A stretch of 64,000 bases of DNA, taken from Laspinema palackyanum D2c. GTDB lineage: Bacteria > Cyanobacteriota > Cyanobacteriia > Cyanobacteriales > Laspinemataceae. A model generated the notes under the pieces. That model was not told the DNA's origin. It saw only the letters and a program-made list of their open reading frames with translations, and searched no databases. This document shows positions 48,688-63,012 of the stretch, piece by piece; the first letter of the stretch is position 1; each line of letters starts with the position of its first letter. Location: NCBI RefSeq assembly GCF_025370875.1, contig NZ_JAMXFD010000013.1:62001-126000 (forward strand), written 5' to 3'. The translations under genes and the position numbers were made by a program.

Positions 48688-51600
48688 ATGAATGTTGAAC
48701 GCCAAATTAGTCAAACCCCTGATTCCGTCAAGCCGGGTGGAACCATTCACGATAGATACTTCCAAATCATAGTGGAACGAGCGGCGATTGGGTTAGCGCT
48801 TTGGGATTTGACTGGAAAATTATTGCAAACCAACCCTTTTTTACAAACCCTGCTGGGGTATGAGGCAGAAGAACTATTGCATCTGGAATATAGTCAGATT
48901 ACTCATCCCGAAGACTGTCAAGTAGAGGAGGCTCTCATGGAAGAGTGTATTGCCAGAAAGAGAGAGGGATATGAAATAGAAAAAAGATTAATCGGAAAAG
49001 ATGGAAAAGAAATCTGGGTCAAACAGAACCTATCCATGAGGCTAGACGGGGCAGAAAATCCACTATTTGCGGTGGCAACCATTGAGACTTTTTCCCCAGT
49101 CTCCTCCCGTGAGAAACCCACTGAAGAATTGGCAGAAAAATACCAAACTATCTTTGATATTTTCCCCCTGGGAATTTCCGTTACAGACTCTGAAGGGAAT
49201 ATTATAGAATCAAATCCTGCTTCATTAAATTATTTAGATGCTCTGGTTATCAGCTCACAAGAAGAGGTCCAACCGGATAGAGATTACCGGCTCATTTTTA
49301 GGGAAGGGACTCCGCTGAATCTCGAAGAATTTTCCAGAAGACTGGTTTTAACAGAAAATGCCAAAAATGGAGTGATCCAAAGTTTACAAGTGGGAATTGC
49401 TTCCGGGGAGGGAGAATTAGACTGGCTGAATATTATAGCTGTACCGATTCCGCTTTCAAATTATGGATTTGTCATCGCCTATATCGAGATTAACGAAGGC
49501 AAAAAAACAGAAATAGCGTTAAAAGAAAGTGAAATGAGGTTTAGAAAAGCCCTGGACCACTTCCCAGATACCTTTGTAATTTATGATGCCGATCGCCGCA
49601 TTCAATTTATTAACACCAATGGGATCCAAGTGAGTGGCTATACCGAAGAACAGATTATCAATCGCCGGGATGAAGAATTATTTCCCCCAGCAGTCACTGA
49701 TAACTATCTTCCCCTACTTCAGGAAGCTATTGAGACAAAAAGTCCTCAAAAAGGAGAATGTAACATTGCTTTAAATAATACCCAATGGAGCGCAGCGATC
49801 GCTTACATTCCCTTGCTGAATGACCGGGGAGAAATTTATCAGATTTTAGGAATTACCCATGATATCACGGAACGCAAGCGGGCTGAAGAATCTTTAATTA
49901 AAAGTGAAACCACCAATCGAGCCTTACTTAATACCATCCCCGATTTAATGTTTAGAGTGAAAGGAGATGGAACCTACTTAGATTTTAAACCGGCTAATTT
50001 TAGCAATTTAATCAAACCGCAAATTTTTCAAGGCTTAAAAGTGGTGGATGTCATGCCCCCAAATATTGCCGAAAAATCCATGAGATATATCCAACAGACC
50101 TTGGAAACTGGAGAGATACAAGTGTTTGAATATCAACTAGAAATCGGCGGTGAAGTTTCGGTCTATGAAGCTAGACTGATTGCCAGTGGAGATGATGAAG
50201 TCGTGGCTATTGTGCGAGACATTACGGCGCGTAAAAATGCCGATATAGAAAAAAATCAATTGATTGAATCCCTCCAGAAGAGTGAAGCGAATCTCGCCCG
50301 AGCACAAAGAGTCGCTCATGTGGGAAGCTGGGAATATGAGGTTGAGTCTAAAAAAATAACCGTTTCTGAAGAATTTTTAAGAATTTTTGACTCCCCTTTG
50401 AATTCCGAAGTAAGCTATTTTCACCTGGTGAATCAGCTACACCCAAAAGATAGAAAAAGTTGGAGGAATCTGATTCGAGAAGCCCTGGCACAAGGGAGCG
50501 CCAATGAAGTTGAACTGAGAATTTGGCAAAGCGATCGCACCCTCCGTTATATTGAAGCAAGGGCGGAGGTGGTATTTAGTGAAACCGGAAAACCCATGAG
50601 GCTCTTTGGAACCGCCTTAGATATTACCGAACAGAAAAAAGCCCAATCTGCCCTTGCCGAATCCGAAGCCAAATATCGCTCCTTAATGAATGATGCCGGA
50701 GATGCAATATTACTCACGGATTTGGAGGGTAATTTTTTAGAATCCAACAAAAAAGCCGAGGAACTATTAGGTTATACCAAAGAAGAATTTGTCACCCTCC
50801 ATGCCAGTCAAATTTTGCCCCCCCAAGAACGGGAAAGAGTGATCTCTATGTTCGCCTTAACGGCAAAAATCGGAGGCGGATGGTTGCCAAATACCCAACT
50901 CCGCCAAAAAGATGGGGAAACTCTGTGGGCGGATATTAGTTGTAGTGTAGTCCAATGGGGAGAGGGTCTGAAAGTTCAGCAGGCAATCCTGCGGGATATT
51001 ACTTATCGGGTTCATATTGAAGCCTCTTTAAGAGAACAAGCGGACCGAGAACGGTTGATATCTGCCATGCAAGAGCGGATCCGACAGTCGTTGGATTTGA
51101 AAGAGATTTTACAAACGACGGTGGTCCAGGTGAGGCAATTTTTACAGTGCGATCGCGTGGCAATTTGTCGCTTAGGCTCGGATTGCACCGGCGAGATGGT
51201 AGCGGAATCGGTTAATTCAGAATACTGCTCCATTTTAGGGCTAACTATTCGGGATCCCTTATTAGGAAAACTGGATTTATCCCTGCAAAAGTTGGGGGGA
51301 ATTTATCAGGTTGAGGATATTACTCAAGCTTGGGTGAGCGAGTTTCAGGTTAATTTTTTAACTGAGGTGGAAGTCAAGGCGATGTTAATGGTGCCCATTG
51401 TCCAAAGTAGTGGGTTATGGGGATTACTGATTGCTCACCACTGTGCGGCACCTCGACGATGGCAGCAGTCAGAAATTAAGTTGCTCAGTCAATTGGCAAC
51501 CCAGGTGGGAATTGCCACCCAACAATCCCAACTGTATGAACAGCTCAAAGAAGCAAATCAACAGTTGCAGCAATTGGCAACTCGGGATGGATTAACCCTG

Positions 51601-52101
51601 TTATCAAATCGGCGTCATTTTAATGAATATTTAGAACGAGAATGGCGACAGATGGAGCGTGAGCGCACCCCACTCTCGTTGATTCTATGCGATATCGATT
51701 TTTTTAAACCCTATAATGACACCTACGGCCATCAAGCTGGGGATGAATCTCTCAAACAAGTTGCAGTTGCCATTCAAAAAGCCAGCAAAAGGCCCTTAGA
51801 TTTTGTAGCGCGCTATGGTGGCGAAGAATTTGCTGTGATTTTACCCGACACCGATGCGGATGGGGCCATCTCCGTCGGGGAAACCATCCGCGAGGGGGTG
51901 AAGGCATTACAAGTTCCCCATCGGGCATCTCCTACCTGTGGATACATTACCTTGAGTGTGGGAATTGCGACGGCGATGCCTGGAGTTGAGTCATCTTTGG
52001 AGACCCTGATTCAAGAAGCCGATCGCGCCCTGTATCGAGCGAAGGACAAGGGCCGCGATTGTTCGGTTCATTATGCTCAGATTGAAAGCCGCTCCTGCTA
52101 A
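48688..52101 (+). CDS. Multi-PAS/GAF diguanylate cyclase (GGDEF)
   Basis: A 1137-residue signalling protein without membrane segments. The N terminus holds about six PAS-type domains (for example FQIIVERAAIGLALWDLTGK, RFRKALDHFPDTFVIYDADR, RSLMNDAGDAILLTDLEGN), several ending in the PAC motif (ITHDITERKRAEE, TALDITEQKKAQSA). A GAF domain (about 795-945, beginning LKEILQTTVVQVRQFLQC) follows. The GGDEF domain (about 960-1130) has LSLILCDIDFFKPYNDTYGH and the active-site RYGGEEF, so diguanylate cyclase activity is expected. No EAL domain and no RxxD inhibitory site just before GGEEF are obvious. Input signals could be light, redox or small ligands; none can be told from the sequence. Confidence 0.93.
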   Translation: MNVERQISQTPDSVKPGGTIHDRYFQIIVERAAIGLALWDLTGKLLQTNPFLQTLLGYEAEELLHLEYSQITHPEDCQVEEALMEECIARKREGYEIEKRLIGKDGKEIWVKQNLSMRLDGAENPLFAVATIETFSPVSSREKPTEELAEKYQTIFDIFPLGISVTDSEGNIIESNPASLNYLDALVISSQEEVQPDRDYRLIFREGTPLNLEEFSRRLVLTENAKNGVIQSLQVGIASGEGELDWLNIIAVPIPLSNYGFVIAYIEINEGKKTEIALKESEMRFRKALDHFPDTFVIYDADRRIQFINTNGIQVSGYTEEQIINRRDEELFPPAVTDNYLPLLQEAIETKSPQKGECNIALNNTQWSAAIAYIPLLNDRGEIYQILGITHDITERKRAEESLIKSETTNRALLNTIPDLMFRVKGDGTYLDFKPANFSNLIKPQIFQGLKVVDVMPPNIAEKSMRYIQQTLETGEIQVFEYQLEIGGEVSVYEARLIASGDDEVVAIVRDITARKNADIEKNQLIESLQKSEANLARAQRVAHVGSWEYEVESKKITVSEEFLRIFDSPLNSEVSYFHLVNQLHPKDRKSWRNLIREALAQGSANEVELRIWQSDRTLRYIEARAEVVFSETGKPMRLFGTALDITEQKKAQSALAESEAKYRSLMNDAGDAILLTDLEGNFLESNKKAEELLGYTKEEFVTLHASQILPPQERERVISMFALTAKIGGGWLPNTQLRQKDGETLWADISCSVVQWGEGLKVQQAILRDITYRVHIEASLREQADRERLISAMQERIRQSLDLKEILQTTVVQVRQFLQCDRVAICRLGSDCTGEMVAESVNSEYCSILGLTIRDPLLGKLDLSLQKLGGIYQVEDITQAWVSEFQVNFLTEVEVKAMLMVPIVQSSGLWGLLIAHHCAAPRRWQQSEIKLLSQLATQVGIATQQSQLYEQLKEANQQLQQLATRDGLTLLSNRRHFNEYLEREWRQMERERTPLSLILCDIDFFKPYNDTYGHQAGDESLKQVAVAIQKASKRPLDFVARYGGEEFAVILPDTDADGAISVGETIREGVKALQVPHRASPTCGYITLSVGIATAMPGVESSLETLIQEADRALYRAKDKGRDCSVHYAQIESRSC

Positions 52102-52589
52102 AATAGATCGCGATTCCACCAGTGCCCCTTGGAGTAAACTATGAAAGGCTGTTTTTTTTGAAGTCCCTCGGTGATGGCGAACAGCTTCGAGGGCCTTGGA
52201 TTGCGATCGCCAGGGGGCACAAAAAGTAGCCCAGTGGAATTAGGGTCAGGAAGATGGACTAGCAATCCCTAGAAATAACCCCGGTTCCAACCCAGAGGCG
52301 ATCGCGCCGTTCCTTACTCCGTTAATGTTCATTCCTGAAGGGGTTTAAGTGAACCGGCAGAACAAGCGCAAGATCCAGGGAGAATGAGATCGTTAATCTA
52401 GGTAAAATATCCCTGAACACAGGATTAACTTCTGGGGAGTTTGAGGGGCTATAAGTCCCGGGCTGTACCAGAATGGTCAGGGTCGGGATACATGGATCCC
52501 TCAAGTCAATTAAAGGGGTCGATGCCCTGAAAATTGACAATCACTGGAATTGTCATGCTATAATTTTATCGCAAATTATTTTTACGGTA
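52102..52589. other. Region between the GGDEF gene and the TnpB gene
   Basis: No gene. The right part (from about 52440) belongs to the transposon's left flank: a hairpin resembling the right-end hairpin (52457..52487), then TGACAATcactggaATTGTCA as a second hairpin. Confidence 0.45.
52457..52487 (+). repeat. Left-side copy of the transposon end hairpin
   Basis: CCCGGGCTGTACCAGAATGG continuing TCAGGGTCGGG folds with stem CCCG..CTG.ACC/GGT.CAG..CGGG. It matches the right-end hairpin at 53767..53796 in about 80% of positions and has the same loop position. It lies about 100 bases before the TnpB start. Confidence 0.6.
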
Positions 52590-53762
52590 ATGCTGAGAGC
52601 AACCAAATACAGAATTTATCCAACCTTCGAGCAAAGGGAACACCTTGCTCAGAGTTTTGGTTGCTTACGATTCGCATGGAACTACGCTCTCAATCTTACC
52701 AACGAAACCTACAAAGCTACAGGGAAGGGTCTAGGTCGCTTTGCCATTCAGAAAGAGATAACTAATCTCAAGAAAGAACACGAATGGATGAAAGAGCCTT
52801 ATTCCCAATGCTTACAGGTTGTTGCACTAAATTTGTCTAGGGCTTTTATAAACTTTTTTGAAGGGAGGGCTTCTTATCCTCAATTCAAATCAAAGCACCG
52901 TACCCAATCTATTAGTTATCCTCAGAATGTCTCAATCGTAGAAGATGGCATCAAATTTCCCAAGATGGGGATTGTTCATGCCAGACTACATAGACCTATT
53001 GAAGGGGCAATCAGAACAGTCACTGTGTCGATGAATGCCTCATGCCAATACTTTGCCTCTGTTTTAGTCGATGATGGGAAAGATATCCCAGAAAAAACGA
53101 CCGAAGGTAAAGCAGTCGGTATTGATTTAGGCTTGACTCATTTTGCTATCACCTCCGATGGGTCTAAATTTGACAATCCCCGTTGGTTGGCTAAACATGA
53201 GAAAAATCTAAGAGCTAAACAAAAACGGTTGTCCAGAAGACAAAAGGGTTCTAACAACCGTAACAAAACCCGTAAGCAGGTATCCGGGGTACATAACAAA
53301 ATATCTCGATGCCGGTCAGATTTTCACCACAAACTATCGCGCAGGATAGTCAACGAAAACCAAGTCATAGTGGTAGAAAATCTAGCAGTTAGGAACCTGG
53401 TCAGAAACCACTGTCTGGCTAAAGCAATCAGCCAAGTGGGATGGGGCCAGTTCTGTACCCTGCTGAAGTACAAAGCAGAGCAAGAAGGGAAAGTTTACCT
53501 AGAAGTAGACCGATTCTTTCCTAGCTCCAAAACCTGCAATGTTTGCCTCAATCAAGTCAGAAGCTTGACCCTTGGTGTCAGGACTTGGCAGTGTGAAAAG
53601 TGCCAAACGAAGCATGATAGAGATATAAACGCTGCCAAGAATATCCGAGATGAAGGACTGCGGATTTTATCCTCTGGAACGGGGGAGATCGCCTATCGTC
53701 CAGGTGTAAGACGAGATAGTAGAGGACGCAAGAAATCTACTGTCTCGCAATCTGCTGGGTAG
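52590..53762 (+). CDS. tnpB: RNA-guided endonuclease TnpB (IS200/IS605 family)
   Basis: A 390-residue TnpB, ancestor-type relative of Cas12. The N terminus (MLRATKYRIYPTFEQREHLA) is the classical wedge region. The RuvC nuclease is complete: Asp179 in GIDLGLTHFA, Glu263 in IVVVENLAV and Asp345 in HDRDINAAKN. The zinc ribbon has CNVC (316, 319) and CEKC (335, 338). The protein uses an omega RNA, usually encoded across its 3' end and the right element end, to cut target DNA next to a transposon-adjacent motif. The first part of the frame to 52473 overlaps left-end hairpins and is not TnpB-like. All key residues are intact. Confidence 0.92.
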   Translation: MLRATKYRIYPTFEQREHLAQSFGCLRFAWNYALNLTNETYKATGKGLGRFAIQKEITNLKKEHEWMKEPYSQCLQVVALNLSRAFINFFEGRASYPQFKSKHRTQSISYPQNVSIVEDGIKFPKMGIVHARLHRPIEGAIRTVTVSMNASCQYFASVLVDDGKDIPEKTTEGKAVGIDLGLTHFAITSDGSKFDNPRWLAKHEKNLRAKQKRLSRRQKGSNNRNKTRKQVSGVHNKISRCRSDFHHKLSRRIVNENQVIVVENLAVRNLVRNHCLAKAISQVGWGQFCTLLKYKAEQEGKVYLEVDRFFPSSKTCNVCLNQVRSLTLGVRTWQCEKCQTKHDRDINAAKNIRDEGLRILSSGTGEIAYRPGVRRDSRGRKKSTVSQSAG

Positions 53763-53766
53763 GAAG

Positions 53767-53796
53767 CCCGCACTGTACCGTAAGGTCAGCGTCGGG
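53767..53796 (+). ncRNA. Right-end hairpin, probable 3' scaffold of an omega RNA
   Basis: CCCGCACTGTACCGTAAGGT continuing CAGCGTCGGG folds with stem CCCG..CTG.ACC/GGT.CAG..CGGG and loop GTAA, just 5 bases after the TnpB stop. In known TnpB systems this end forms the last hairpin of the guide RNA, with the guide being the bases downstream of TAGTTCAC. The assignment is inferred from family knowledge. Confidence 0.5.
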
Positions 53797-53879
53797 TAGT
53801 TCACAAATGTGTTTTCCATTTCAATTCACAAGCCAGCTAAACCGTCCGGGTATCACCCGTTCTTGAAAATCTAATCTCA

Positions 53880-54284
53880 ATGACTAAAACAATCATTCAG
53901 ACAGACCAAGCACCCGCACCCGTTGGACCTTACAATCAGGCGATCGTCGCCACGGGTCAGTTCGTCTTTGTTGCGGGTCAAATCTGCCTAGACCCCAATA
54001 CCGGGACCCTAGTCGGGGAAGGTGATGTGGTCAAACAGACTATCCAAGTGATGGCAAATCTAAATGCTATCCTCACCGCTGCCGGTGCCACCTTTGACGA
54101 TGTGGTAAAAACCACGGTTTTTTTGGCAGATATGAATGATTTTGCTGCGATGAATGCCGTTTATGCTAAATATTTCGATGAAGCCACTGCACCGGCCCGC
54201 GCAACAGTCCAAGTATCACGTTTACCTAAAGATGTACTCGTTGAGATTGACTGTATCGCGGTGATTGAAGGAAATCCTAGATAG
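53880..54284 (+). CDS. ridA: RidA family reactive-intermediate deaminase
   Basis: A 134-residue protein of the YjgF/YER057c/UK114 family, which hydrolyses reactive enamine/imine intermediates formed by PLP enzymes. Family motifs are [40 protein letters not shown] and the C-terminal [20 protein letters not shown], with Arg and Glu of the active site. The length is normal. The TnpB element has inserted upstream, about 80 bases from its start, so its promoter may be altered. Confidence 0.95.
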
Positions 54285-54371
54285 TCTTAAGATTTTAAAA
54301 CAGCAAAATCCTGATATCTTAGGGGTTTGGTGGCAAGATACTGGTAAATTTAGGGGAGGTTATAAAATTTA

Positions 54372-55508
54372 ATGACGATCCAACAGCCTACAAATACGGT
54401 AGTTACTAGCAAAGCGTCTAGTAATTCCTTTAGAACTTCCATTCTGAGCGTTGATTTGGGCCGCACAGCAACAAAAGCTTGTGTCAGCCGCGATCCCAAC
54501 CAAGTGGTATTTATTCCGTCTAATGTGGCCCAAGTCCCTGTAGAAAAAGTGCGCGGTGGGGAATTTGAATCTCGGCCTACGGATCCATTATTGGATATGT
54601 GGTTGGAGTATCAAGGGCGCGGTTATGCGATCGGTCAGTTGGCGGCTGACTTTGGCGCAAGTCTCGGGGTTGGCGAACGGAAAGTGGAAAATGCCCTGGT
54701 GAAAGTCCTCGCCAGCGCCGCTTACTTTGGACTCAAAGATGATTTAGTGGTTGTCCTGGGTCTGCCTTATCATTCTCAAGAAGAGTTTGAGCGGGAAAAA
54801 GAGGAAATTACCAGTTTGCTGACTTCGCCTCATGTGATGAGCTATCGCGGTGAGCAAGTGACCCTGAATATCACCAAAGTTTGGGTGATGCCGGAAGGAT
54901 ATGGCAGCTTAATCTGGTGTGAAGCTCAGGAGAAGGTGGATAAAAAAGGGGTGTCCCCGGAATTTGCTAAGACATCGGTGGCGATCGTTGATATCGGACA
55001 TCAAACTGCTGACTTTTTAATGGTAGATAATTTCCGGTTCGCACGCGGAGCATCCAAGAGCGAACCCTTTGCCATGAGCGAGTTTTACAAGCGCGTTGGC
55101 ACCGAAGTGGAAAAAGCATATAGCCAATCCCCGATTAGCGTCGATAGTCAATCTTTGTCTTTAATCGATGCCGTGAATAAACCCAGGGGTCAACGGTTCT
55201 TCCGTCCTCGTGGCGCATCCAAACCGACGAATTTGGATGATTTTCTGCCCAACTTGCGAGAATTATTTGCCCGCGAACTGTCGGATTTGTTGATTAAGTG
55301 GTTACCGGAACGGGTCACTGACGTGATTTTGACCGGCGGTGGCGGGGAATTTTTCTCCGATGCTCTCAAACCGTTAGTTGAACAAGCCGGTTTGAAAGTT
55401 CATCTGGCCCAACCGTCCCGTCCGGCGAATGCTGTGGGACAATATTTGTATGGAGAGGCTCAACTTGCCTCCTCTTCGTACACTCGCTCCTCTAAGGCTG
55501 GAAGTTAA
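54372..55508 (+). CDS. ParM/StbA-like actin-family protein (CorM-like)
   Basis: A 378-residue actin-fold ATPase. LSVDLGRTATKACVSRD is phosphate loop 1 (about 26-42). VAIVDIGHQTADFLMVDNF is phosphate loop 2 and VTDVILTGGGGEFFSDALK is the adenosine loop. The first 20 residues and the C-terminal Ser-rich tail are probably disordered. The fold matches ParM/StbA, which segregates plasmids with ParR. A downstream gene encodes a ParR-like partner and overlaps by one base. The chromosomal setting without plasmid genes and the partner's membrane-like N terminus fit the CorM protein reported, as I recall, to form cortical filaments in multicellular cyanobacteria. Classical plasmid segregation cannot be excluded. 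Confidence 0.8.
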   Translation: MTIQQPTNTVVTSKASSNSFRTSILSVDLGRTATKACVSRDPNQVVFIPSNVAQVPVEKVRGGEFESRPTDPLLDMWLEYQGRGYAIGQLAADFGASLGVGERKVENALVKVLASAAYFGLKDDLVVVLGLPYHSQEEFEREKEEITSLLTSPHVMSYRGEQVTLNITKVWVMPEGYGSLIWCEAQEKVDKKGVSPEFAKTSVAIVDIGHQTADFLMVDNFRFARGASKSEPFAMSEFYKRVGTEVEKAYSQSPISVDSQSLSLIDAVNKPRGQRFFRPRGASKPTNLDDFLPNLRELFARELSDLLIKWLPERVTDVILTGGGGEFFSDALKPLVEQAGLKVHLAQPSRPANAVGQYLYGEAQLASSSYTRSSKAGS

Positions 55509-56005
55509 TGGTTTTTTGGTTAAGCAAGACAAAGAAACGGGTCGGATTTACCGATGAGGTAGCCGACCAAACCTTGTTAGCGGTTGTGCAGAAAGAGTTA
55601 CAAAACCAACCGCACAAGAGTTTCGGCGACTTGTGTAAAGAAGCCCTATGGCATTATTTGTATGTACCCGAATCGGTGAAACCGACGCGGAAATCAAGTG
55701 ATGCCTCGGACACCATTGCGGAGTTACAAGGGCAATTGAGGTCCTTAGAGGAACGGGTAGCGGCGAGGGAGGCGAGTCGGTTGGATGCAATGGAAAAGCA
55801 GTTGCAACAATTGAGCTTGCAGGTGGGACAGTTGGCGATCGCCCTCAATAATCAACGGGGAAATTATCAACCGCCTCAACAACCCTATCTGGAACCCATC
55901 CCGGAACCCCAACGGGAACCGGAACCGGAACCGGAACCCGTCGCCCCCCCCAAACCCGTGGACCCCTTACTCCAACGACTCAGTTCCTTCATTGATGATT
56001 TCTAA
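55508..56005 (+). CDS. ParR-like adaptor with coiled coil (CorR-like)
   Basis: A 165-residue partner of the actin-like protein, starting within its stop codon (TAATG). The N terminus (MVFWLSKTKKRVGFTDEVAD) has an amphipathic hydrophobic start followed by basic residues, which could bind membrane. Residues 20-60 are compatible with a short ribbon-helix-helix or its remnant. Residues 68-118 form a coiled coil (ELQGQLRSLEERVAAREASR). Then follow a Pro/Glu-rich linker with PEPEPEP and a conserved-looking end PLLQRLSSFIDDF that could contact the filament end. ParR proteins normally bind DNA repeats upstream; I find no convincing repeats of that kind before the operon. Confidence 0.65.
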   Translation: MVFWLSKTKKRVGFTDEVADQTLLAVVQKELQNQPHKSFGDLCKEALWHYLYVPESVKPTRKSSDASDTIAELQGQLRSLEERVAAREASRLDAMEKQLQQLSLQVGQLAIALNNQRGNYQPPQQPYLEPIPEPQREPEPEPEPVAPPKPVDPLLQRLSSFIDDF

Positions 56006-56051
56006 GTCGGAACCAATGGGTTAGAAAAAATCAGGATATTATCTGCAAGCA

Positions 56052-56096
56052 TCAGGAGTCAAAAGTTTTTAAAACCTTTGACTCCTGACTTTTTTT
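56052..56096 (+). terminator. Terminator of the ParM/ParR-like operon
   Basis: Stem TCAGGAGTCAAAAG / CTTTGACTCCTGA around an AT loop, then CTTTTTTT. It lies 47 bases after the stop codon. Confidence 0.85.
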
Positions 56097-56135
56097 AGGA
56101 AGATTATATCAAGAATTTGAAGAGATTCGGTATAG

Positions 56136-56312
56136 TCAAGGGAACTCAAAAGATAGGCTATTTGCTGCTTCTCCAATAATTTGCAGATGATGAACTATCC
56201 AAACTTGAATGAGTTCTTGTTCATCAAATGCTTGCCGTCCTTGATTCGCATAACGTTCAATTGCTGATATCGCCTCCCAAATATCTTGTAGCCGTTCAGT
56301 TTCTCGTCTCAT
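56136..56312 (-). pseudogene. Truncated HEPN toxin (DUF86 family)
   Basis: A 58-codon frame starting MRRETERLQDIWEAISAIER and continuing GRQAFDEQELIQVWIVHHLQIIGEA in the manner of DUF86/HEPN toxins (about 110 residues). It stops after NSLSFEFP, before the RxxxxH catalytic motif (RNILVHDY-type) should appear. The 3' half is missing from the following sequence, so the gene is a truncated remnant. It overlaps the end of an MNT-type fragment by ATGA, the usual order of HEPN/MNT pairs. Confidence 0.7.
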
Positions 56313-56490
56313 AGCTTGATAGCCTCAAGCAAAATGCGATCGCGAATCCGATCTTTCAACATATCCACCGTCACAATATCCACCTGGCGATTTAATAGCT
56401 GTTCCAAATCCAGCAATAACCCCCCTGGAAACCAAGGGGTGATTTTTTCTAAATCATAGTCCACTAAAAAATCAATATCGCTACTACTAA
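56309..56490 (-). pseudogene. 5'-truncated MNT-type nucleotidyltransferase antitoxin
   Basis: The reading SSSDIDFLVDYD followed by LLDLEQLLNRQVDIVTVDML and ending DRIRDRILLEAIKL is the C-terminal two-thirds of a minimal nucleotidyltransferase of the HEPN/MNT toxin-antitoxin type. The N-terminal part with the GSxAR loop is gone; a stop codon lies directly before SSSDID in frame. A short trace of the lost part may remain further upstream. The pair is therefore non-functional. Confidence 0.65.
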
Positions 56491-56867
56491 AATTTTATGT
56501 TCCTGAAGCCAGCAAAAAATCCAAGCAAACTTGGCTTGAACTTTAGGTTATTGTTTCAGCAACCAATCGGATACCGGCGAACTTCAGCCTGACCCCGAAT
56601 AAAACTCAATTTGTCATTGCACGACTGGCTTAGTTTACTTTTTATAACATAAATGTTCTCATAGCCGAACAAGAGTGTCCAGAGGGTCGGTTCAGAAAAA
56701 TTAGCCAGACTTTAGAAACCGGGTTTAAATCCCCAATTAGGGACAGTAAGCCTAGTTTTTTTAAACAAACCCGATCGCGAAACCCTAGAACGATGCTCAA
56801 TGCGCCTGTGTACCACAGTTCTCCCCTACAATAGAAAACCGATCGCATCCCCCTTAATATTCACCCC
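56491..56867. other. Region between the toxin remnants and the DUF3370 gene
   Basis: No gene found. Contains a half element of the AGAAACCGGGTTT type near 56717. The promoter of the DUF3370 gene must lie in the last 100 bases. Confidence 0.4.
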
Positions 56868-61404: not shown

Positions 61405-63012
61405 ATGAACTCTACCAAGACCAGTAAAAACACATTTGCTATTACAACACCGCTTTACTATGTGAACGATTTGCCTCACATTGGCAGCGCCTATACCACG
61501 ATTGCCGCCGATGTTGTGGCGAGGTTTGAGCGACTTCGGGGGAAATCAGTCCTGCTGATTACCGGAACCGATGAACATGGGCAAAAAATAGAGCGGACCG
61601 CAGAAGCATTGGGGCGATCGCCCCAAGAACACTGCGATACAATTGCTGCCGGATTTGACCAATTATGGCAAAAACTGAACATTGCCTACGACAGGTTTAG
61701 CCGGACCACCAATCCCCGTCATGGAGCGATCGTCAAGGAATTTTTCCAGCGCGTCTGGGACAATGATGACATTTATTTAAGCCAGCAAACGGGTTGGTAC
61801 TGTGTCGCTTGCGAAGAATTTAAAGACAAACGGGAGTTGCTAGAAGACAATCACTGTCCGATGCATCCCAACCGGCAAGTGGAATGGCGGGATGAGCAGA
61901 ATTACTTTTTTCGCCTTTCTAAATACCAACCCCAACTAGAGGCCCTTTATCAAGAGCGTCCTGATTTTATTCGGCCCGAAATTCGACGCAACGAAGTTTT
62001 GAGTTTTGTCCAACAAGGACTGCAAGATTTCTCCATTTCTCGGGTGAATGTAGCTTGGGGATTTCCTGTGCCGGTGGATCCAAAACAGACCCTCTATGTG
62101 TGGTTTGATGCCCTGTTAGGATATGTGACGGCCCTGCTAGACCCGGATCAAGAACCGACCCTGGAGAATGCCTTATCCCAATGGGCACCAATTAATCTGC
62201 ACTTGATTGGTAAAGATATTTTGCGCTTTCATGCCGTGTATTGGCCTGCCATGCTCATGTCCGCAGGGGTTCCCGTTTCCGGGGGAGTGTTTGGACATGG
62301 GTTTTTAACGAAAGACGGTCAGAAAATTAGCAAAACTTTGGGTAATATTATCGACCCAGTGGATTTAGTGGAACGGTATGGATCCGATGCACTGCGTTAC
62401 TACTTTCTGAAAGAAATTGAATTTGGACGGGACGGGGATTTTAACGAAACTCGATTTATTAATATTCTCAATGCCGATCTGGCCAACGACTTGGGGAATT
62501 TATTAAATAGGACCCTGGGCATGGTGAAAAAATATTGTCAAGGTCAGGTGCCGAAGGTGAATCCCGAGGAAATTGGCGATAAGAATGGTTTAAAAGCAGC
62601 GGGGGTAACTTTAGGCGATCGCGTTACCCGTGCTTATGAGGGCTTGCAATTTAGCCAAGGGTGTGAAGAGATTCTGTCCTTGGTGCGAGGCTGTAATAAG
62701 TACATTGACGAACAGGCACCCTGGAAACTCTATAAGCAGGGGGAACAGGAGGCCGTTGAGCAAGTGCTCTATGCTGTTTTAGAATCAGTCAGACTCTCGG
62801 CGTACTTACTCTCTGCGATCATTCCGAATATCAGCACTGCGATTTATCAGCAACTGGGATATTCGATTGATTTTAATGACCAAACCTCGATCATGAGTGC
62901 ACTGAACTTTCCGACTCATTCGAGTTGGGGGATTCTCAGCAGCGATCGCGTGCTCAAAGAAGCCAAACCCGTCTTTGCTCGCCTGGAGTTGAGCAATCCG
63001 GCGTCTTCATAG
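61405..63012 (+). CDS. metG: Methionyl-tRNA synthetase
   Basis: A 535-residue class I aminoacyl-tRNA synthetase. It starts MNSTKTSKNTFAITTPLYYV. The HIGH motif is DLPHIGSAYTT (25-28) and KMSKS appears as KISKTLGN. Zinc site cysteines are in WYCVACEEFKD and DNHCPMHPN. The anticodon-binding helical domain is in the C-terminal third. No C-terminal tRNA-binding (EMAP) domain is fused, consistent with a short type. The start at 61405 is preferred over 61321. No T-box is present. Confidence 0.95.
   Translation: MNSTKTSKNTFAITTPLYYVNDLPHIGSAYTTIAADVVARFERLRGKSVLLITGTDEHGQKIERTAEALGRSPQEHCDTIAAGFDQLWQKLNIAYDRFSRTTNPRHGAIVKEFFQRVWDNDDIYLSQQTGWYCVACEEFKDKRELLEDNHCPMHPNRQVEWRDEQNYFFRLSKYQPQLEALYQERPDFIRPEIRRNEVLSFVQQGLQDFSISRVNVAWGFPVPVDPKQTLYVWFDALLGYVTALLDPDQEPTLENALSQWAPINLHLIGKDILRFHAVYWPAMLMSAGVPVSGGVFGHGFLTKDGQKISKTLGNIIDPVDLVERYGSDALRYYFLKEIEFGRDGDFNETRFINILNADLANDLGNLLNRTLGMVKKYCQGQVPKVNPEEIGDKNGLKAAGVTLGDRVTRAYEGLQFSQGCEEILSLVRGCNKYIDEQAPWKLYKQGEQEAVEQVLYAVLESVRLSAYLLSAIIPNISTAIYQQLGYSIDFNDQTSIMSALNFPTHSSWGILSSDRVLKEAKPVFARLELSNPASS

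Follow-up and report, generated by a model that had tools for sequence, protein, structure and literature searches.

A chromosomal actin-like gene pair of Laspinema palackyanum, very probably a CorMR (FcmBC) operon

Identity of the gene pair

The gene pair at positions 54372–56005 of the window, that is, of the whole stretch of 64,000 nucleotides analysed here from Laspinema palackyanum D2c, is very probably a CorMR (FcmBC) operon on the chromosome of a cyanobacterium that does not belong to the heterocystous clade. A CorMR-type identity had been put forward in an earlier note made from the sequence alone; the curated equivalog model for each of the two proteins confirms it, as does a PDB entry named CorM. 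The pair extends the known FcmBC/CorMR cytoskeleton to another genus, the system itself being already published. The CorMR work to which the earlier note rightly pointed is reportedly a preprint of 2025 (Springstein et al.). PMC12645912 independently describes the system in Nostoc punctiforme: FcmB assembles into filaments that follow the membrane along the cell circumference, these filaments lie in the cytoplasm when fcmC is absent, deletion of fcmB or fcmC gives wider, rounder cells, both genes being required for the rod shape, and FcmB contacts FcmC in two-hybrid assays.

The actin of the window reached 607.4 bits against NCBIfam NF052678 (FcmB), an equivalog model with a cut-off of 300, and both Pfam ALP_N and MreB-like_C matched above cut-off. 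PDB chain 9rmi, named 'CorM', was the sole PDB sequence matching at E up to 1, and aligned over residues 5–371 with an E value of 9.9e-157 and 524 bits. The partner FcmC likewise passed its model NF052682 (191.9 bits, cut-off 90). The nucleotide loops VDLGRTATK (residues 27–35), VDIGHQTAD (206–214) and TGGGGE (321–326) are all intact, which, with the ALP_N match, bears out the ParM/StbA-like actin read here before; we take them to act as the phosphate-1, phosphate-2 and adenosine-side loops, respectively. ALP_N has one match in the source genome, fcmB itself, and the genome also has a single strong match to MreB as well as one MinC. An assignment of fcmB as MreB was tried and rejected, as a genome search with MreB_Mbl (PF06723, E 0.01) returned eight places, the strongest on contig C10 and none at the position of fcmB. 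The features of the locus, in window coordinates, are as follows.

54372..55508, + strand: fcmB (corM) ORF, 378 aa (NF052678, Pfam and PDB 9rmi matches)
54453..54476, + strand: phosphate-1 loop DLGRTATK, residues 28–35 (DLGRT.TK invariant in six rows of alignment A1)
54990..55013, + strand: phosphate-2 loop DIGHQTAD, residues 207–214 (DIGHQT.D invariant in six rows of A1)
55332..55349, + strand: adenosine-side loop TGGGGE, residues 321–326 (TGGGG invariant in six rows of A1)
55508..56005, + strand: fcmC (corR), filament partner, 165 aa (NCBIfam NF052682)
55508..55540, + strand: N-terminus MVFWLSKTKKR, hydrophobic with a Trp and then basic, a putative membrane anchor (Trp conservation)
55532..55657, + strand: ribbon-helix-helix-like half, a strand and helices 18–33 and 39–50 (AlphaFold2 model; weak structural matches)
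55703..55861, + strand: coiled coil, residues 66–118 (AlphaFold2, block pLDDT 95–98 at residues 71–110)
55862..55957, + strand: Pro/Glu-rich linker (sequence; 6-nt tandem unit at 55901–55938)
55958..56002, + strand: C-terminal tail with DPLLQRLSSFIDDF, putative CorM-binding helix (tail conservation; helix 153–162 in the AlphaFold2 model)
56052..56096, + strand: intrinsic terminator, hairpin 56052–56088 followed by TTTTTTT at 56090–56096 (−19.9 kcal/mol)

Architecture of FcmC and a proposed mechanism

The two ORFs, both on the + strand, have one base in common (TAATG), the overlap that the earlier note had pointed out. Its outline of the partner also agrees with the AlphaFold2 model and the sequence: FcmC starts with MVFWLSKTKKRV and continues into the coiled-coil helix, the Pro/Glu-rich linker and the tail helix. 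The amphipathic basic N-terminus that it ascribed to the partner stands only in part. The segment is indeed hydrophobic and then basic, but residues 1–10 are modelled without a helix (mean pLDDT 64), so that an amphipathic helix is not supported.

The tail shows strong conservation. Among 141 distinct FcmC sequences, the final Phe is present in all 141, the ending [DE][DE]F in 132 and the motif DPx[LI]xR[LI] in 133. FcmC ORFs were accepted by either their N-domain motif or their tail; since the N-domain motif is found in 141/141, the tail counts are not an artefact of ORF choice.

Foldseek returned no significant match for the window and Gloeomargaritales FcmC models (best E 3.7 and 1.6). In a second structural comparison, the N-terminal half of the window FcmC aligned weakly with NikR and ParD2, with Z of 3.5–3.8 over 43–45 residues, and Z reached 5.2 for the Gloeomargaritales FcmC of locus L097; the matches listed were mostly ribbon-helix-helix entries. 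The FcmC profile matched mainly coiled-coil or helical chains in the PDB among the best 60 of 93 matches, none of these 60 being named ParR or CorR; in another PDB sequence search, no chain named CorR was among the 5 matches listed. A search of genome contigs with FcmC as query confirmed no relative.

We propose that FcmB (CorM) would bind and hydrolyse ATP and polymerise into actin-like filaments, as its family and intact loops suggest. FcmC (CorR) would dimerise through its ribbon-helix-helix-like half and coiled coil. It may be held at the inner membrane by the Trp-plus-basic N-terminus, a step less well supported than the others, and its conserved C-terminal helix would bind the FcmB filaments. 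The predicted outcome is circumferential filaments beneath the membrane, and narrower or elongated cells.

The N-terminus of FcmC is a putative membrane anchor, to which the sequence lends indirect support. A Trp near the start is not rare: it occurs within seven residues in 4/32 window ORFs of at least 200 aa, in 18/113 ORFs of one locus set and in 55/193 of another, where 29 of the 55 start with MLEW and look like one recurrent neighbour. The anchor argument rests on the fixed place of the Trp, which is at position 3 or 4 in 116/116 distinct Trp-type FcmC. Within the cortical reading, a variant that we hold possible but doubtful is that another part of FcmC, or another protein, makes the membrane contact, with the Trp N-terminus serving some other function. 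It draws on the absence of a helix and the low pLDDT at residues 1–10, and on the FcmC of deep lineages, which keep the same tail without the Trp; the invariant Trp position argues against it, as does the FcmB tree described below, in which the Trp loci are all on one side of one branch (locus L072 there being ambiguous).

Genomic setting and the possibility of DNA segregation

The source genome comprises 7.03 Mb in 81 contigs, and the window covers positions 62001–126000 of contig C13. The earlier note had named a plasmid-like contig as evidence that would speak against it; what was found is a contig of at least 126 kb that does not resemble a plasmid, and chromosomal relatives. A plasmid origin of the pair was rejected on these two grounds and on the lack of a plasmid hit for FcmC, which had no match among plasmid records at E 0.01. 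The pair is chromosomal in two related genomes of one contig each (G393 and G395) and on contig C1 of a three-contig genome (G386). In the family of the source organism, FcmB was found in 14/14 genomes and FcmC in the same 14. The window and genome G229 share, by eye, the gene block malQ-NUDIX-RidA-fcmB-fcmC. Between NUDIX and RidA the window carries a GGDEF-type sensor ORF and a TnpB-like ORF (48688–53762), and NUDIX and RidA are adjacent in G229. The names malQ, NUDIX, GGDEF-type and TnpB-like are our assignments by eye from the sequence, those of RidA, fcmB and fcmC being excepted.

The clean terminator noticed earlier on the 3′ side of the pair is indeed present as a hairpin with a T run. 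It is absent from the output of the consensus terminator scan, perhaps because of an internal mismatch in the stem.

The earlier note had seen no convincing parC-like iterons, and none was found in the 400 bp upstream of fcmB, where the best 10-mer has 2 copies and was equalled in 23/30 shuffles. Repeats in 53770–54420 and 55990–56600 are two- or three-copy families alone, at chance level, and the two rows of tandem repeats detected both lie inside the coding Pro/Glu stretch. The iteron test counted repeated 10-mers, one mismatch being allowed, over the 400 bp upstream and compared the count with 30 shuffles, a pass being at least 3 copies with at most 1/30 shuffles as high. It was applied to 7 plasmid controls and to 42 of the 154 loci, which comprised each of the 25 that lack Trp and 17 of the 126 that have it. 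The test is weak, because only 3/7 cyanobacterial plasmid ParM controls pass it (L180, L181 and L182). Five of the 42 loci also pass, namely L114, L116 and L118, whose motif we take to be HIP1-like, together with L145 and the A-rich L115; the window is not among them. That most loci without Trp likewise show none by this test argues against their being working DNA-segregation systems.

These results bear on the reading in which the pair is a ParMRC on the chromosome with its DNA-segregating role retained: FcmC would bind a distant centromere, and FcmB would push the copies apart. The ParM-type fold seen in the ALP_N match would fit such a role, and so would the ribbon-helix-helix-like half of FcmC, which in the model (best Z 3.8) resembles a DNA-binding fold; chromosomal ParMRs of unsettled role occur in Desulfitobacterium and Clostridium, according to PMC12270681. 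We nevertheless consider this reading very improbable for the window pair, given the lack of upstream iterons by the test described, weak as it is, and the Nostoc mutants, which according to PMC12645912 have no obvious change in nucleoid distribution while FcmB is at the membrane.

Lineages, fusions and known systems

FcmB is present in 92/388 genomes of the class, and above cut-off in 62/386 of the phylum sample. In 151/154 loci, fcmB is followed downstream by an FcmC-like ORF. Two loci, L106 and L135, carry FcmB with no recognisable FcmC downstream, and in L045 (genome G374) FcmB is split by an internal stop while the FcmC-like ORF downstream is open. Trp is found in the first 7 residues of FcmC in 126/151 loci and is missing in 25/151; L072, counted among the latter, is ambiguous because an upstream ATG-CTG-TGG is out of frame. 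Some loci duplicate each other (for example L123/L059 and L134/L060), so that locus counts are not species counts. The N-domain net charge has a mean of −2.4 in the 116 rows that have Trp and of −0.5 in the 24 rows that lack it, a weak difference between rows that are not independent; it is 0 in the window FcmC and −1 to 2 in seven plasmid partners.

A first FcmB tree comprised 22 of the 126 Trp loci (thinned at 84% identity), all 28 others, 5 fusions (see below) and 5 plasmid ParMs, and a careful tree of 54 rows was built without the 5 ParMs and L045. In the careful tree, a single branch (support 99/97, seen in 98% of 200 bootstrap trees) splits the loci by Trp: on one side are 24 loci that lack Trp, along with two for which no FcmC was found, and the other side holds 22 loci with Trp, all five fusions and L072. 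The split by itself fits gain or loss. In the first tree, rooted with the plasmid ParMs, the root falls among loci without Trp. This points to a gain of the Trp N-terminus, though the outgroup is very distant and gave long-branch warnings.

A tentative and rather unlikely extension is that the FcmBC family spans a switch from DNA to membrane. FcmC proteins without Trp, in Gloeomargaritales and Leptolyngbya-type lineages, with their plain ribbon-helix-helix-like half, would perhaps still be on DNA or on some other anchor; a single change, on the branch that leads to the window and to every Nostocales row, would have made the partner a membrane protein; and later Nostocales FcmB fusions, partly on plasmids, would have dispensed with FcmC. 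Independently of this extension, a cytoskeleton for cell shape has arisen from an actin that segregates DNA, and living lineages with and without the putative anchor flank one well-supported branch, so that the step is testable by swaps of the N-terminus.

Gloeomargaritales are unicellular and the sister group of plastids. FcmB matches were found in Gloeomargaritales VI4D9, Gloeomargarita sp. SKYG116 and a Gloeomargaritaceae MAG, with FcmC downstream in each, and the best PDB match of the G241 actin is CorM. None of the Gloeomargaritales FcmC (L097–L100, L043 and L044) has the Trp-plus-basic start. Those of G241 and G085 reach 46.7 and 44.6 bits against NF052682, under its cut-off of 90; in alignment A2, 31/31 FcmC match this model at E 0.001, including three from named members of the Gloeomargaritales or Gloeomargaritaceae. 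An apparent second helix-helix half is found in 4/6 Gloeomargaritales FcmC rows, where at most 1 of 500 shuffles scored as high, and was not seen in L098, L100 or four rows of other lineages. The best matches of the L097 FcmC model are ribbon-helix-helix proteins. FcmBC has been reported as completely absent from unicellular cyanobacteria, and Gloeomargarita is not named in the main text of that paper (PMC12645912). The Gloeomargaritales members conflict with this claimed absence for unicellular strains, and with a restriction of the system to filamentous cyanobacteria.

Strong FcmB matches, at 52–61%, also occur in four plasmid records. Five fusions were compared, on three plasmids (Nostoc pNPM2, Dolichospermum pUHCC0315c and Trichormus variabilis plasmid A) and at loci in two genomes (G030 and G245).

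FcmB fusion loci, in locus coordinates: L036:7500-9026, L037:7146-9047, L038:7572-9101, L040 and L041; truncated in L185

All five, of 508–633 aa, carry a glycine-rich hydrophobic segment and a coiled coil N-terminal to FcmB, and no FcmC was found near them in the stretches compared. The fusions derive from chromosomal FcmB, as they are nested inside the Nostocales FcmB clade (97/96 at the nearest starred node). By eye, the last Asp of the phosphate-2 loop is lost in 3/5; the 4/4 fusion rows tested pass the FcmB cut-off, and fusions may for this reason be annotated as FcmB. The same N-terminal membrane/coiled-coil module carries other cargo, a dynamin-like GTPase in 4/8 and an FGE-sulfatase in 3/8 of the proteins tested. 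In 18/21 loci (L183–L203), the module has as a neighbour a homologue of a 336-aa protein, whose HNH match is weak and below cut-off (E 0.07). The module occurs in 23/388 genomes of the order and was not found in the source genome of the window, and viral contigs searched with a fusion as query gave no confirmed relative. Its C-terminal cargo varies (GTPase, sulfatase, FcmB or little else), and in this it resembles a conflict or defence-type cassette with variable cargo. The CorMR preprint may already contain part of what is set out here on the N-terminus switch, the Gloeomargaritales members and the fusions.

Compared with FcmB and FcmC of N. punctiforme (NF052678 and NF052682), the window pair is alike in the cut-offs passed, gene order, orientation and chromosomal location. 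It differs in its one-base overlap, the commonest fcmB-fcmC gap being 5 nt (90/151 loci), and in the FcmC start MVFW, in contrast to MFQW in 89/116 Trp-type FcmC. Against the 524-bit match with CorM 9rmi over residues 5–371, an eight-residue insert, YSQSPISV (residues 250–257; 55119–55142), in the window protein has no counterpart in the five other A1 rows or in 9rmi. The ParM loci carried by plasmids of Nostocales and Crinalium likewise encode a ParM/StbA family protein and have a small downstream gene in the seven loci examined. Their ParM proteins, however, share 22–31% identity with the window FcmB in 21/25 plasmid records matched, and clear upstream repeats are present in 3/7 of these loci.
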